Positions 37,570 through 41,966 of a DNA stretch of 64,000 bases are shown in pieces. Every line of letters starts with the position of its first letter. Position 1 is the stretch's first letter. The translations under genes and the position numbers were made by a program. The notes under the pieces were generated by a model. It was not told the DNA's origin. It ran no database searches and saw only the letters and a program-made list of their open reading frames with translations. This stretch comes from Geothrix terrae. GTDB lineage: Bacteria; Acidobacteriota; Holophagae; Holophagales; Holophagaceae. The stretch lies in contig NZ_JAKZLA010000006.1 in assembly GCF_022808775.1 (NCBI RefSeq), positions 1 to 64,000 on the forward strand, written 5' to 3'.

Positions 37570-38490
37570 CTACTCCCTCAGGCTGCGGCCGGTGCGGTGC
37601 AGGAAGACATCCTCCAGGGTGGCCCGGCGGACATGGACCTGCTGGAAGGGGACGGCGGCAGACTCGGCGGCCTCGAGCAGCCGCGGCAGCAGGGCCTTGG
37701 GATCCGGCGTGGGGATCTCCCAGAGGTCCGCGCGGCGCTCCACGGCCTGGCCCAGCCGTGCGGCGAAGGCCACGGGGTCGGGTGCGTCGCCCTCGAAGGT
37801 CAGCTCCACGACGCTGGGAATGGCCAGGTCCGCGATGAGCGAGGCCGGCGTGCCCGTGGCGATGACCTGGCCGTGGTCCATGATGGCCAGGCGGTCACAG
37901 AGCGCTTCCGCCTCATCCATGTAGTGGGTGGTGAGGATCACCGTCCGTCCCTCGGCCTTCATGCGCCGCACCACATCCCACAGGCTGCGCCGGGCCTGGG
38001 GATCGAGGCCCGTGGTGGGCTCGTCCAGGAAGACCAGCTCCGGATCGTTCACCAGGGCCAGCGCCAGGGCCAGTCGCTGCTGCTGGCCGCCGCTGAGGGT
38101 GATGTGGTAGGCGTCGGCCTTCTCCTGGAGCTGCACCAGGTCCAGCAGCTCCGAGGTGCTCCGGCGCTTCGGGTAGTAGCTGCCGTAGAGGTCCAGGGCC
38201 TCCCGGGGCGTGATCTTGTTGAAGAGGCTGGTGCTCTGGAGCTGGACGCCGATGCGGGCGCGGATCTCCTGCCCCTGGTTCGCCCAGGTGAGGCCCAGGA
38301 TCTCGATGTCGCCGCCGTCGGCCTCGGTCAGGCCCTCGATGATCTCCAGCGTGGTGGTCTTCCCCGCGCCGTTGGGGCCCAACAGGCCGAACACCTCGCC
38401 CCGGGGAACCTCCAGATCCACGCCATCCACTGCGAGCGTCTTGGGGTACTGCTTCCTGAGCCCCCTCACGTGCAAGGCAAGTTCGGCCAT
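37570..38490 (-). CDS. ABC transporter ATP-binding protein (drug/NatA type)
   Basis: 306 residues from ATG 38490, which has GAGG 5 bases upstream (GTG 38496 is less well placed). Walker A GPNGAGKTT, signature LSGGQQQRLALA, Walker B LVFLDEPTTGLD, and the H-loop His in ILTTHYMDEAEALCDR. The C-terminal ~80 residues are the regulatory extension common in DrrA/CcmA-like ATPases. It energises the permease downstream. Confidence 0.93.
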   Translation of the reverse strand: MAELALHVRGLRKQYPKTLAVDGVDLEVPRGEVFGLLGPNGAGKTTTLEIIEGLTEADGGDIEILGLTWANQGQEIRARIGVQLQSTSLFNKITPREALDLYGSYYPKRRSTSELLDLVQLQEKADAYHITLSGGQQQRLALALALVNDPELVFLDEPTTGLDPQARRSLWDVVRRMKAEGRTVILTTHYMDEAEALCDRLAIMDHGQVIATGTPASLIADLAIPSVVELTFEGDAPDPVAFAARLGQAVERRADLWEIPTPDPKALLPRLLEAAESAAVPFQQVHVRRATLEDVFLHRTGRSLRE

Positions 38491-38560
38491 GGCCACCTCG
38501 ATCCTTCAGATTTCCACGATGCCCTGCGCGTGACCACCCCAGATCGGCGAAGTCTGGAAT

Positions 38561-38576: not shown

Positions 38577-38690
38577 GGGGCGGGCCGGCGAGTCCGATGG
38601 CACCGGCTTCCGCCTCCATTTTCCTGTGTGGACACCATGTGCATGCGGTGCCACCCTGACGGACCCGTCCATCTCCGTGGAGGCAGGATC

Positions 38691-39437
38691 ATGGAACCGT
38701 CGAGCTCTCCGGCCCTGCCACCACCGGCCGCCCTCGCGGTCCCCGGCTTCGACCCGGCCGGACGGGCCTTCCGCGTGGCGGCGGGCCTCCTCGTGCTCGG
38801 CTATGTCGCCGTGCAGGGTTTCCAGGACTATGTGTTCAACGCCTTCCGGCCTCCCCTGGATGTGGCCGAGGAACTGCTGCAGGGCGCCGCGGGGCTGCAC
38901 CTCGCCCGCTCGGCCCTCATGCTGATCTGGATGTTCGCGCTGGTCTTCATCGCCTGGGTCATCTGCGCCCAGGGCATGCGCCGGCGCCCGCTCCTGGCCT
39001 GGGCCGCGTTCCTGGGGTTCTTCATGTTCGGCCTGTTCGAGGTGGCCCTGCGCTCGGTCGAGCTCTTCTGGACCCAGATCCAGCTCCCGGCGGAGTACCT
39101 CAAGGCGGTGGATCCGGTGATCCGCGCGGGAATCCTCGACAAGGTCGCCACCTTCCAGTCCGTCCAGCATGCCCTCTACTTCCCCCTGATGCTCGCGCCC
39201 TGCCTGGGCAGCCTGGGGGTGTACTTCCTGTTCCCCGGAAGCCCGCGCATCCACTGGGCCCTGAAGTCCGTCATGGCGATCGCCGTCGCGCGGATGACGG
39301 TCCGGCTGCTGACCTACGCCGGCATCCACCTCATGAGCATGGCCTTCTACGAGCGGATCTACTTCCTGCTCGTCGTGATCGAGCATCTACCCAAGGCCTA
39401 CTGGCTCTTCCGGGTGGGGGACGAGGACCTGCCATGA
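38691..39437 (+). CDS. Integral membrane protein of unknown function
   Basis: 248 residues from ATG 38691 (GGAGG about 8 bases upstream). Five likely membrane helices, with charged or aromatic stretches between them (SVELFWTQIQLPAEY and YERIYFLLVVIEHLPKAYWLF). I do not recognise the family. It stands alone between a divergent ABC exporter and a convergent UbiA fusion gene, closed by a strong hairpin. Confidence 0.7.
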   Translation: MEPSSSPALPPPAALAVPGFDPAGRAFRVAAGLLVLGYVAVQGFQDYVFNAFRPPLDVAEELLQGAAGLHLARSALMLIWMFALVFIAWVICAQGMRRRPLLAWAAFLGFFMFGLFEVALRSVELFWTQIQLPAEYLKAVDPVIRAGILDKVATFQSVQHALYFPLMLAPCLGSLGVYFLFPGSPRIHWALKSVMAIAVARMTVRLLTYAGIHLMSMAFYERIYFLLVVIEHLPKAYWLFRVGDEDLP

Positions 39438-39505: not shown

Positions 39506-41074
39506 CTAGGACAGGTGGGCCAGGGGGATGATCCCGAACCACAGGAGGTAGGTCAGGGCCAGGGCCATGAGGCCGTCGATGCGCTCGCAGGGCGCGCCCC
39601 GGCGGAGGTAGCGGAGGATGGCGCGGACCAGCAGCAGGGCGTGGGGGATGGCCAGGTAGACGACGAGTCCGCTGGTCCCGCCGAAGAGGCCCCACTGCTG
39701 CCAGGCCACTCCGCAGGCGGCAGCCGCCACCGCGAATCCCAGGGCGGCCCAGGCAGCCCCCCGGCGGCCCAGGAGCACCGCCAGCGTCCGCTTGGCCACG
39801 GCTCCGTCCGCCTCGTGGTCCGGCAGGGCCGAGAGCGTGATGGCGGAGAGGGTGGCCAGGAACAGGGGCAGGCCCATGAGCCAGGGGAACGGGTCCCGCC
39901 AGATGCCGGACTGGAGCAGGCCCCCGACGAAGATGGCCGCGAAGCTGTGGGTGAGGCCCACGTCCAGCTCCCCCAGGCCCCGGTAGACGAGCTTCAGGGG
40001 GGGCACGGTGTAGCCCGCGGCGAGCGCCGCCAGGGCGATCATCGCCGCCAGGCCCGGCCCGCCGGACGGGGCCAGGGCGGCGCTCAGGGCCGCCAACCCC
40101 GCGCCCAGCGCCAGGGCCAGCCCGGCCATGGCCCGCCGGACGCTGCCGGGGCCGAGTTCCCCGTCCGCCAGCACGCGGCTGCCGCCGTTGAAGGGGCCCG
40201 CGTGGCGGTTGAGGCGGTCCGTGTCCTGGTCGAACCACTCGTTGCTGACCACGGTGAGCGCCTCCATCAGGAAGAGGCACAGGTAGCCGAGCCAGTAGAC
40301 GGGGTGCGAGAAGGAGCCGTGCCGCGCGGCCGCCAGGGCGCCGATGGTGTAGGCCACCCAGGCCATGGGGTAGAACTGCAGGCGGAGCAGCCGCAGCCAG
40401 GCCCCGGCGCGGTGGAGGAGGGCGTGCCGGTGGAGGCGACCGGGCAGCCGGGCCGCTTCGGCTCGCGCCTGGTCCAGCCACCGGGCCCGCGCCTCCTCAG
40501 TGGCGGGCTTCACGGGGGCGAAGGTGGAAATGAAGGTGGGCGCTACGCCGCAGAAGCCCAGGGTGGCGCGCCGCATGGCCTGGTGGCCGGGCTGGCGGTA
40601 GATGAGCCGGTAGACCCAGGATGGCGTGTCCATGGTCACCAGCAGGTGTGCCGAGCGCCCCTTCAGCAACTTCGTCCAGTTGGCGGGATCCTCCTCGTCG
40701 GCCGCGAACGCGAAGCCGGGGGTGAGCACGCGATCGAGGAAGCCCTTGAGCAGGGCGGGCAGGGTGCCCCACCAGGCCGGGTAGACGAAGACCAGGTGGT
40801 CGGCCCATTGGATCAGCGCCTGGGCCCGGGCCAGGTCCGGCTCCAGGGCCTGGTCCCGGGGCGAGGGCAGCCGCACGTGGGGATCGAAGGTGAGACCGGC
40901 GAGGTCGAAGCGCTCGACCTCGAACCCGGCGGCCCGGGCGCCTGCCTCGTAGGCACTGGCCAGGGCCCCGCAGAAGCTGCCCACGCGGGGATGGCCGAGG
41001 ATCACGAGAATCCTGGGCGTTGCGCCTTCCGTGGATGCCGCCACCTGCCCTCCGTCCGGATGGGATGGGGCCAT
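39506..41074 (-). CDS. Fusion: flavodoxin-fold quinone reductase + UbiA-family prenyltransferase
   Basis: 522 residues from ATG 41074 (AGGAG just upstream). Residues 20-210 match the NQO1/KefF-type NAD(P)H:quinone oxidoreductase flavodoxin fold: RILVILGHPR, VFVYPAWWGTLPALLKGFLDRVL and the GFAFA loop. Residues 225-522 are a UbiA membrane prenyltransferase with about nine helices; the first Asp-rich motif is NEWFDQDTD (278-286) and the second ALPDHEADGAVAKRT. UbiA enzymes attach prenyl chains to quinone, chlorophyll or haem precursors. One chain could reduce and prenylate a quinone ring. The frame is continuous; a sequencing frameshift would separate, not join, them. ispE follows upstream. Confidence 0.85.
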   Translation of the reverse strand: MAPSHPDGGQVAASTEGATPRILVILGHPRVGSFCGALASAYEAGARAAGFEVERFDLAGLTFDPHVRLPSPRDQALEPDLARAQALIQWADHLVFVYPAWWGTLPALLKGFLDRVLTPGFAFAADEEDPANWTKLLKGRSAHLLVTMDTPSWVYRLIYRQPGHQAMRRATLGFCGVAPTFISTFAPVKPATEEARARWLDQARAEAARLPGRLHRHALLHRAGAWLRLLRLQFYPMAWVAYTIGALAAARHGSFSHPVYWLGYLCLFLMEALTVVSNEWFDQDTDRLNRHAGPFNGGSRVLADGELGPGSVRRAMAGLALALGAGLAALSAALAPSGGPGLAAMIALAALAAGYTVPPLKLVYRGLGELDVGLTHSFAAIFVGGLLQSGIWRDPFPWLMGLPLFLATLSAITLSALPDHEADGAVAKRTLAVLLGRRGAAWAALGFAVAAAACGVAWQQWGLFGGTSGLVVYLAIPHALLLVRAILRYLRRGAPCERIDGLMALALTYLLWFGIIPLAHLS

Positions 41075-41091
41075 CCTACTCCTGGGGTCGA

Positions 41092-41928
41092 TCAGACGCG
41101 CCAGAGGCCCCAGTTGGGCCGGAGGCCGGAGATCTGCGTCGCAGCGGCATCCCGGTCCTGGACGCTGTCGTACCGGGCCGCCCAGCAGCTGCCGGAGCCG
41201 CAGAGCAGGGGCTCGCCGCCGGTATCGCGCAGGGCGTCGCGCACCTCGGCCAGGGGCGGGCACACCCACAGGGCCGCGCCCGTGAGGTCGTTGCGCCAGG
41301 GCGCCGCGGCGCCTTCAGATTGCGAGGCCAGGGCCTCGGGAAAGGGATAGCCCACGTCCTGGAGGGCCCGGTACACGCTGGGCGTGCTCACATGCAGGCC
41401 CGGATGGACCAGCAGGATGGGTTCCAGCGGCACCGGCCGCAGGGGGAATACCCGCTCGCCCCGGCCCAGGCCCAGCACCGTCCCGCCCAGGAGGAACAGG
41501 GGCACGTCGCTGCCCAGGCGGGCGGCCATCCTCAGCAGCACCTGATCTTCCAATCCCAGGTCGAACATCCGGTTGCCCAGGCGCAGGGCCGCCGCCGCAT
41601 CGCTGCTGCCGCCGCCGAGGCCGGCGCCGTGGGGGATGCGCTTCTCCAGGCGCAGGGCCGCGGGCAGGGGCCGCTTGGCGGCCTCCTCCAGCAGGCGCCA
41701 GGCCTTGACCACCAGGTTCGATCCGTCCGCCGTCAGGCCCTGGCCCGTGGGGCCAGTGATCTCGAGCGTCAGCGCCGGGGCTGGCTCGGCCGACAGCGTG
41801 TCCGTCAGCTCTGCCACACCCTCCAGCACGGTGGTGACCAGCTCCAGCTCGTGGAACCCGTCCGCGCGCCGGCCCAGCACGGCAAGGAAGCGGTTGAGCT
41901 TGGCAGGGGCGGGAACCTGGAGAGCCAT
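41092..41928 (-). CDS. ispE: 4-diphosphocytidyl-2-C-methyl-D-erythritol kinase
   Basis: 278 residues from ATG 41928. GHMP-kinase motifs: PAPAKLNRFLAVLGRRADGFHEL at the N-terminus, the ATP loop IPHGAGLGGGSSDAAAAL, and the C-terminal GSGSC motif. It phosphorylates CDP-methylerythritol in the MEP isoprenoid pathway. Its neighbour 17 bases downstream is the UbiA fusion, which consumes isoprenoid, so the pair links precursor supply to prenyl transfer. Confidence 0.94.
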   Translation of the reverse strand: MALQVPAPAKLNRFLAVLGRRADGFHELELVTTVLEGVAELTDTLSAEPAPALTLEITGPTGQGLTADGSNLVVKAWRLLEEAAKRPLPAALRLEKRIPHGAGLGGGSSDAAAALRLGNRMFDLGLEDQVLLRMAARLGSDVPLFLLGGTVLGLGRGERVFPLRPVPLEPILLVHPGLHVSTPSVYRALQDVGYPFPEALASQSEGAAAPWRNDLTGAALWVCPPLAEVRDALRDTGGEPLLCGSGSCWAARYDSVQDRDAAATQISGLRPNWGLWRV

Positions 41929-41966
41929 GGCTCCAAGGTAGCGCATCGCTCCGCTAGGCTGGTCGG

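Follow-up and report, generated by a model that had tools for sequence, protein, structure and literature searches.

A recurrent fusion of an NQO-type reductase and a UbiA prenyltransferase in Geothrix and haloarchaea, a putative accessory enzyme of quinone metabolism

The window, a stretch of 64,000 nucleotides from Geothrix terrae, carries on its minus strand a gene (39506..41074) recognised by its open reading frame, its Pfam domains and its homologues, which encodes a protein of 522 aa in which a reductase is fused to a prenyltransferase. The frame was described as uninterrupted in the initial annotation, and it is indeed a single ORF running from an ATG at 41074 to a stop codon at 39506-39508; on the same strand, four bases before the ATG, an AGGAG (41079..41083) is likely the ribosome-binding site. 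Upstream, after a gap of 17 bases, lies ispE (41092..41946, minus strand), an order that is kept within the genus, while the conserved far flank of the locus is an ABC transporter ATPase gene (37570..38496, minus strand), taken from the ORF list and the comparison of the genus loci. Between the fusion and the transporter gene, the ORF list gives a convergent membrane-protein gene on the plus strand (38628..39437) that, among the genus loci compared, is seen in L123 only. A plus-strand ORF that overlaps the fusion gene appears spurious, an antisense frame of the kind common in GC-rich DNA.

The N-terminal half (residues 21-202; 40469..41014, minus strand) is a flavodoxin-fold reductase of NQO/KefF type, as proposed initially, and both sequence and fold agree on this assignment. 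It matches Flavodoxin_2 of Pfam (PF02525, E 1.4e-37, 129.8 bits against a cut-off of 27), and its profile and fold matches are quinone reductases (3lcm, 4r81, NQO2 and NQO1). In the AlphaFold2 model of the whole protein, obtained from a 39-row alignment (mean pLDDT 84.6, pTM 0.77), the NQO fold spans the entire half: structure comparison gives Z 24.0 with 3lcm_B (rmsd 2.1, 184 aligned), Z 23.3 with 1qr2_A (rmsd 2.2, 194 aligned) and Z 23.2 with NQO1 (1d4a), the assignment being based on Z 23-24, and Z 22-24 overall, against NQO2, NQO1 and Smu.1420. The cut-off of the KefF equivalog (NCBIfam NF002044) is missed by the fusion, with 36.1 bits against 210. Two residues, W102 and Y155, are invariant in the fusions aligned (38 and 39 rows) and correspond to a Trp and a Tyr in active-site stretches of NQO2, where these residues presumably have catalytic-site roles.

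A single long helix (residues 193-231; 40382..40498, minus strand) is predicted by the model to connect the reductase half to the membrane half, a UbiA prenyltransferase domain (residues 243-492; 39599..40348, minus strand) that had also been named correctly. This domain is recognised by Pfam PF01040 (E 4.8e-22, 78.9 bits against a cut-off of 34.2) and shows the UbiA helical fold in the model, with Z 21.8 to the UbiA homolog 4od5_A (rmsd 3.1, 263 aligned), Z 21-22 to UbiA homologues and Z 20.9 to UBIAD1 (8djk). Both Asp-rich motifs reported for it are borne out by the 38-row and 39-row alignments: N278, D282 and D286 of the first one, N278-E-W-F-D282-Q-D-T-D286 (residues 278-286; 40217..40243, minus strand), are invariant, and likewise D419 and D423 of the second one, D419-HEA-D423 (39806..39820, minus strand), and K428. 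The departure of NEWFDQDTD from the usual NDxxDxxxD, noticed at the outset, is real; in particular, E279 is at least 90% conserved in the same alignments, and therefore NE is a signature of the fusion family and not a defect.

These residues bear on the possibility that the protein is a membrane-tethered quinone reductase, whose UbiA half would only anchor it and bind lipid quinone, the pool being kept reduced with no prenylation. NQO-type enzymes do reduce quinones, the halves are modelled as joined by one long helix, and the Roseinatronobacter homologue is annotated as a whole simply as NAD(P)H-dependent oxidoreductase; however, K428 and both Asp motifs do not vary among the 38 and 39 aligned fusions, and UbiA-only descendants of the fusion retain both Asp motifs, with dN/dS of 0.27-0.40 in the five comparisons including a UbiA-only gene. 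A role as an anchor alone is insufficient to account for this conservation, and the tethered reductase is considered decidedly unlikely.

As regards the specificity of the prenyltransferase, NCBIfam gives sub-threshold matches only, to an NAD(P)H oxidoreductase model, to KefF and, for the C-terminal half, to prenyltransferase and MenA models; the best MenA model reaches 41.6 bits against an equivalog cut-off of 264, and TIGR00751 is absent among the matches to the fusion at E 0.001. In the tree, from which the rows acid_G567a and UONLY_L194 were dropped for lack of columns and in which some long branches meet, the C-half forms a clade of its own (97/94) that is not inside the MenA clade. The clade beside it comprises E. 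coli MenA, haloarchaeal MenA and acidobacterial UbiA proteins, the joining fork being drawn open, and the branches of heme O, lipid and lycopene-elongase type lie apart. The view that, among solved structures, UBIAD1 is clearly closest to the C-half was set aside, because UBIAD1 leads only with two MenA rows in the alignment; without them the C-half profile scores 29.2 bits for UBIAD1 against 28.8 for chlorophyll synthase, and with the whole-fusion alignment UBIAD1 falls behind chlorophyll synthase. The near equality of these two scores is one of the points in favour of a C-half that prenylates a non-quinone compound (e.g. a lipid, a pigment or a phenolic), with the reductase half performing another redox step there; UbiA enzymes accept many acceptors and, in Roseinatronobacter, a P450 gene is located one gene downstream of the fusion. 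The position of the C-half next to MenA and away from the other branches, together with a partner half of quinone-reductase type, speaks against such an acceptor, which seems unlikely.

Within the genus, the ispE locus was compared in 47 Geothrix-type genomes. The full-length fusion, with the same domain order, is present in 11 of them, in 10 intact between ispE and the ABC transporter gene and in one elsewhere; among 297 genomes of the phylum it is confined to Geothrix, with these 11 full-length copies. The copy placed away from the locus of the other genus members is found in G454 (C1:637164-638663, locus L209) and is 63% identical. In three draft genomes (G034, G012 and G461) the UbiA half stands alone at the ispE locus; the UbiA-only genes (L129 9082-10017, L130 4022-4975, L194 820-1878) differ in their N-terminal leaders, and their Asp motifs are intact. 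The fusion gene of G018 (L170, within 836-1320) has been shortened to 138 aa by an in-frame internal deletion, so that the beginning of the N-half runs directly into the final residues of the C-half. Thirty genomes, G454 included, have ispE and then the ABC gene with nothing of the fusion between them, which makes the fusion dispensable; as for the rest, two stretches stop short of the ABC gene, and ispE was not found in one genome. Where the locus lacks the fusion, the rest of the genome was checked as well, except for G455, G457 and G462. In the tree of the flanking genes, whose bootstrap had not settled, the three UbiA-only genomes group together (100/90), as do eight of the ten fusion carriers (88/81), and the other two carriers fall together with the remnant, and with three genomes lacking the fusion, in one clade (100/100). 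This distribution points to a single loss of the reductase half and to several losses of the whole gene, the counts being unable to tell gain from loss. Because three related genomes retained the UbiA half alone, prenylation appears to be the core function; it would not always need the fused reductase, for which another reductase can presumably stand in.

A scan of genome contigs with the single protein gave at least 14 loci, a number to be read as an undercount that may miss further phyla, as the scan used short exact patterns. Full-length relatives with ~49-52% identity were found in Haloterrigena salina, a Natronomonas draft, Halostagnicola and two Halococcaceae drafts; in a sample of Halobacteria, 33 of 391 genomes carry the fusion, full-length in all 33 and at least 62% identical to the Haloterrigena copy. 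Among 72,556 plasmid records, 101 matched and one covered at least 80% of the query, a Roseinatronobacter plasmid with a fusion of 44% identity over 95% of the query. The search for the same domain order in relatives was therefore positive in Geothrix, Halobacteria and Roseinatronobacter (44-91% identity among full-length homologues), that is, across three phyla from both bacteria and archaea, and the halves are neither two genes nor always separate in relatives. In fact, the fusion is genuine, due neither to chance nor to an assembly error, since it occupies the same place in 10 of the 47 genus genomes and other contexts in the 33 haloarchaea.

In the tree of each half, the copies of Geothrix, haloarchaea and Roseinatronobacter group together (95/73 for the N-half and 97/94 for the C-half). 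As each half forms one clade and the nearest free N-halves have no UbiA gene in the stretch examined beside them, the simplest history would be a single fusion event followed by transfer as a unit between domains of life. The stand-alone relatives of the N-half, L210 and L211 in Acidobacteriota and L224-L228 in IMG/VR contigs, are 49-53% identical to it over its length and lack a UbiA gene within the stretch of ~1.5-6 kb beside each. The five IMG/VR genes are 51-53% identical to the reductase half; the fusion was not found in viral contigs, where each of these five relatives is an N-half alone.

The dN/dS values of ten Geothrix pairs, 0.21-0.34 for the N-half and 0.16-0.36 for the C-half, indicate that purifying selection acts on both halves. 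A neutral fusion, in which two unrelated enzymes are joined but not functionally linked, would agree with the fact that the halves can part, as in the three genomes with UbiA alone and in the 138 aa remnant of G018, but it accords poorly with selection on both halves, with full-length matches in 33 of 33 haloarchaeal carriers and with the grouping of both halves, which fits transfer as a fused unit; it is hardly credible. Of the coupling between ring reduction and prenylation put forward in the initial annotation, the two domains are right and the fusion recurs across domains of life, and because of this recurrence in three phyla a functional link is likely.

The gene context was compared in 28 of 35 loci, the others (L108, L117, L122, L123, L129, L130 and L131) having no fusion ORF called; L129-L131 hold no full fusion. 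The haloarchaeal copies have at least three contexts that are unrelated to one another: beside a gene that we take to be phosphoglycerate mutase-like; downstream of presumed ABC-2 transporter, carbonic-anhydrase-like and cupin genes; and beside a gene presumably related to valyl-tRNA synthetase. No quinone gene adjoining the fusion was recognised in the haloarchaeal loci examined. Operon context was rejected as a clue to the substrate, since ispE upstream of the fusion is seen only in the genus of the window and the haloarchaeal contexts are unrelated. The link to ispE holds here in so far as the two genes adjoin, and it falls outside the idea of coupling, as the haloarchaeal contexts differ and haloarchaea, according to PMC8305020, make their isoprenoids via a modified mevalonate pathway.

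Catalase and superoxide dismutase genes are located near the Roseinatronobacter copy, and this neighbourhood is compatible with a detoxification function, in which toxic free quinones from outside would be reduced and anchored in lipid, the product being incidental. The patchy presence and repeated loss of the fusion would also suit this function, as would the KefF and MdaB type relatives, which are tied to quinone or electrophile stress. On the other hand, the haloarchaeal neighbourhoods examined contain nothing recognised as a stress gene, and for detoxification a reductase alone would suffice; such a function is very unlikely.

The other enzymes of the carriers define the place of the fusion in quinone metabolism. 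A separate ordinary MenA is encoded by all 33 haloarchaeal carriers (E 2.1e-59 or better), and the four Halobacteria without a MenA match include no carrier; in the Halococcaceae draft G063, outside the sample of 391, none of six UbiA matches was recognised as MenA, the partial match L066 being unclassified. The genome of the window encodes an MqnP-like UbiA protein (L046) and a heme O synthase-like UbiA protein, and has two matches to the MqnA/MqnD family, which are futalosine-type genes. The fusion is ruled out as the main menaquinone enzyme by these findings, and the initial suggestion of a new way to organise quinone biosynthesis does not hold for the main pathway, as the carriers retain a separate main prenyltransferase; because of this separate MenA or MqnP-like enzyme, the fusion is to be regarded as an accessory enzyme.

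Two further UbiA-type genes of the window's genome were observed outside this locus. One, at G000:C11 ~69616-71337 and outside the window (L050: 403-2124, plus strand), is an IspH-UbiA fusion in one 573-aa frame, with 252 bits for ispH_lytB against a cut-off of 188 and 57 bits for the UbiA domain. The other, L049 (G000:C1 ~447000-448100), has a very long tree branch, and the frame scanned matches no NCBIfam model at 1e-10.

When UbiA enzymes act on the precursors of quinones, the ring that receives the chain is reduced and electron-rich. Since such a ring is needed and reductases like the N-half produce hydroquinones, reduction would precede prenylation. With middling confidence, we propose a bifunctional, membrane-bound accessory enzyme for salvage or remodelling, in which the N-half makes a hydroquinone and the MenA-like half prenylates it. 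Electrons from NAD(P)H would pass through a flavin to the free head group of a quinone, with a naphthoquinone as the likeliest candidate, and so yield the hydroquinone; in the C-half, the electron-rich ring and a polyprenyl diphosphate would then be joined inside the membrane. The fusion may hand over the unstable hydroquinone at the membrane surface, preventing its re-oxidation. As main synthesis is served by a separate enzyme in the carriers, the fusion would more likely salvage or remodel unprenylated quinones. This interpretation is plausible, strengthened by the occurrence of the fusion across domains and weakened as a claim on the main pathway.

The presence of the fusion in Geothrix and in salt-loving archaea suggests that the two steps are physically coupled and form an extra route to membrane quinones. 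Its preservation in both bacteria and archaea provides evidence that a single process can include NQO-type reduction as well as UbiA-type prenylation and, if the fusion salvages quinones, some prokaryotes would build respiratory quinones from scavenged head groups. It is also a simple test object, with one gene, two catalytic sites that can be inactivated separately and natural relatives lacking the reductase.

In comparison with known systems, the N-half shares with NQO1/NQO2, Smu.1420 (3lcm) and Pfam Flavodoxin_2 the whole fold, an active-site stretch and the alignment; it differs in its fusion to a membrane prenyltransferase and in the identity of ~24-27% to NQO1/NQO2 and Smu.1420 in structural alignments. 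MenA (TIGR00751 and PRK06080 models) adjoins the C-half in the tree and its models match it below threshold, but the C-half is only 26-27% identical to haloarchaeal MenA, far under all MenA cut-offs; moreover, only the fusion has a reductase domain, and it coexists with a true MenA. In animals, menadione is reduced to menadiol and then prenylated by UBIAD1 (PMC10719312), whereas the part of NQO1 in the mammalian vitamin K cycle is doubted (PMC11119062). It is conceivable, but improbable, that the fusion is a single-polypeptide prokaryotic counterpart of NQO1-UBIAD1, which would reduce and prenylate free naphthoquinones (menadione-like, or quinones of other organisms), by-pass the DHNA pathway and have travelled as a module between bacteria and haloarchaea. 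In that case, Geothrix could gain an additional quinone for respiration or electron shuttling. An unidentified shuttle is an idea associated with Geothrix, and a search of the open-licence literature on Geothrix shuttles yielded no mention of a prenylated quinone. No paper describing the fusion was found in the open-licence PMC literature. UBIAD1 and NQO1, proposed for the formation of menaquinone-4 from menadione in animals, have in common with the fusion the two kinds of domain, supported by fold matches of Z 20.9 (UBIAD1) and Z 23.2 (NQO1, 1d4a), and the proposed order of reduction and then prenylation; in contrast, they are separate proteins in animals and one polypeptide in the fusion, in which two known enzyme families are arranged in a new way.
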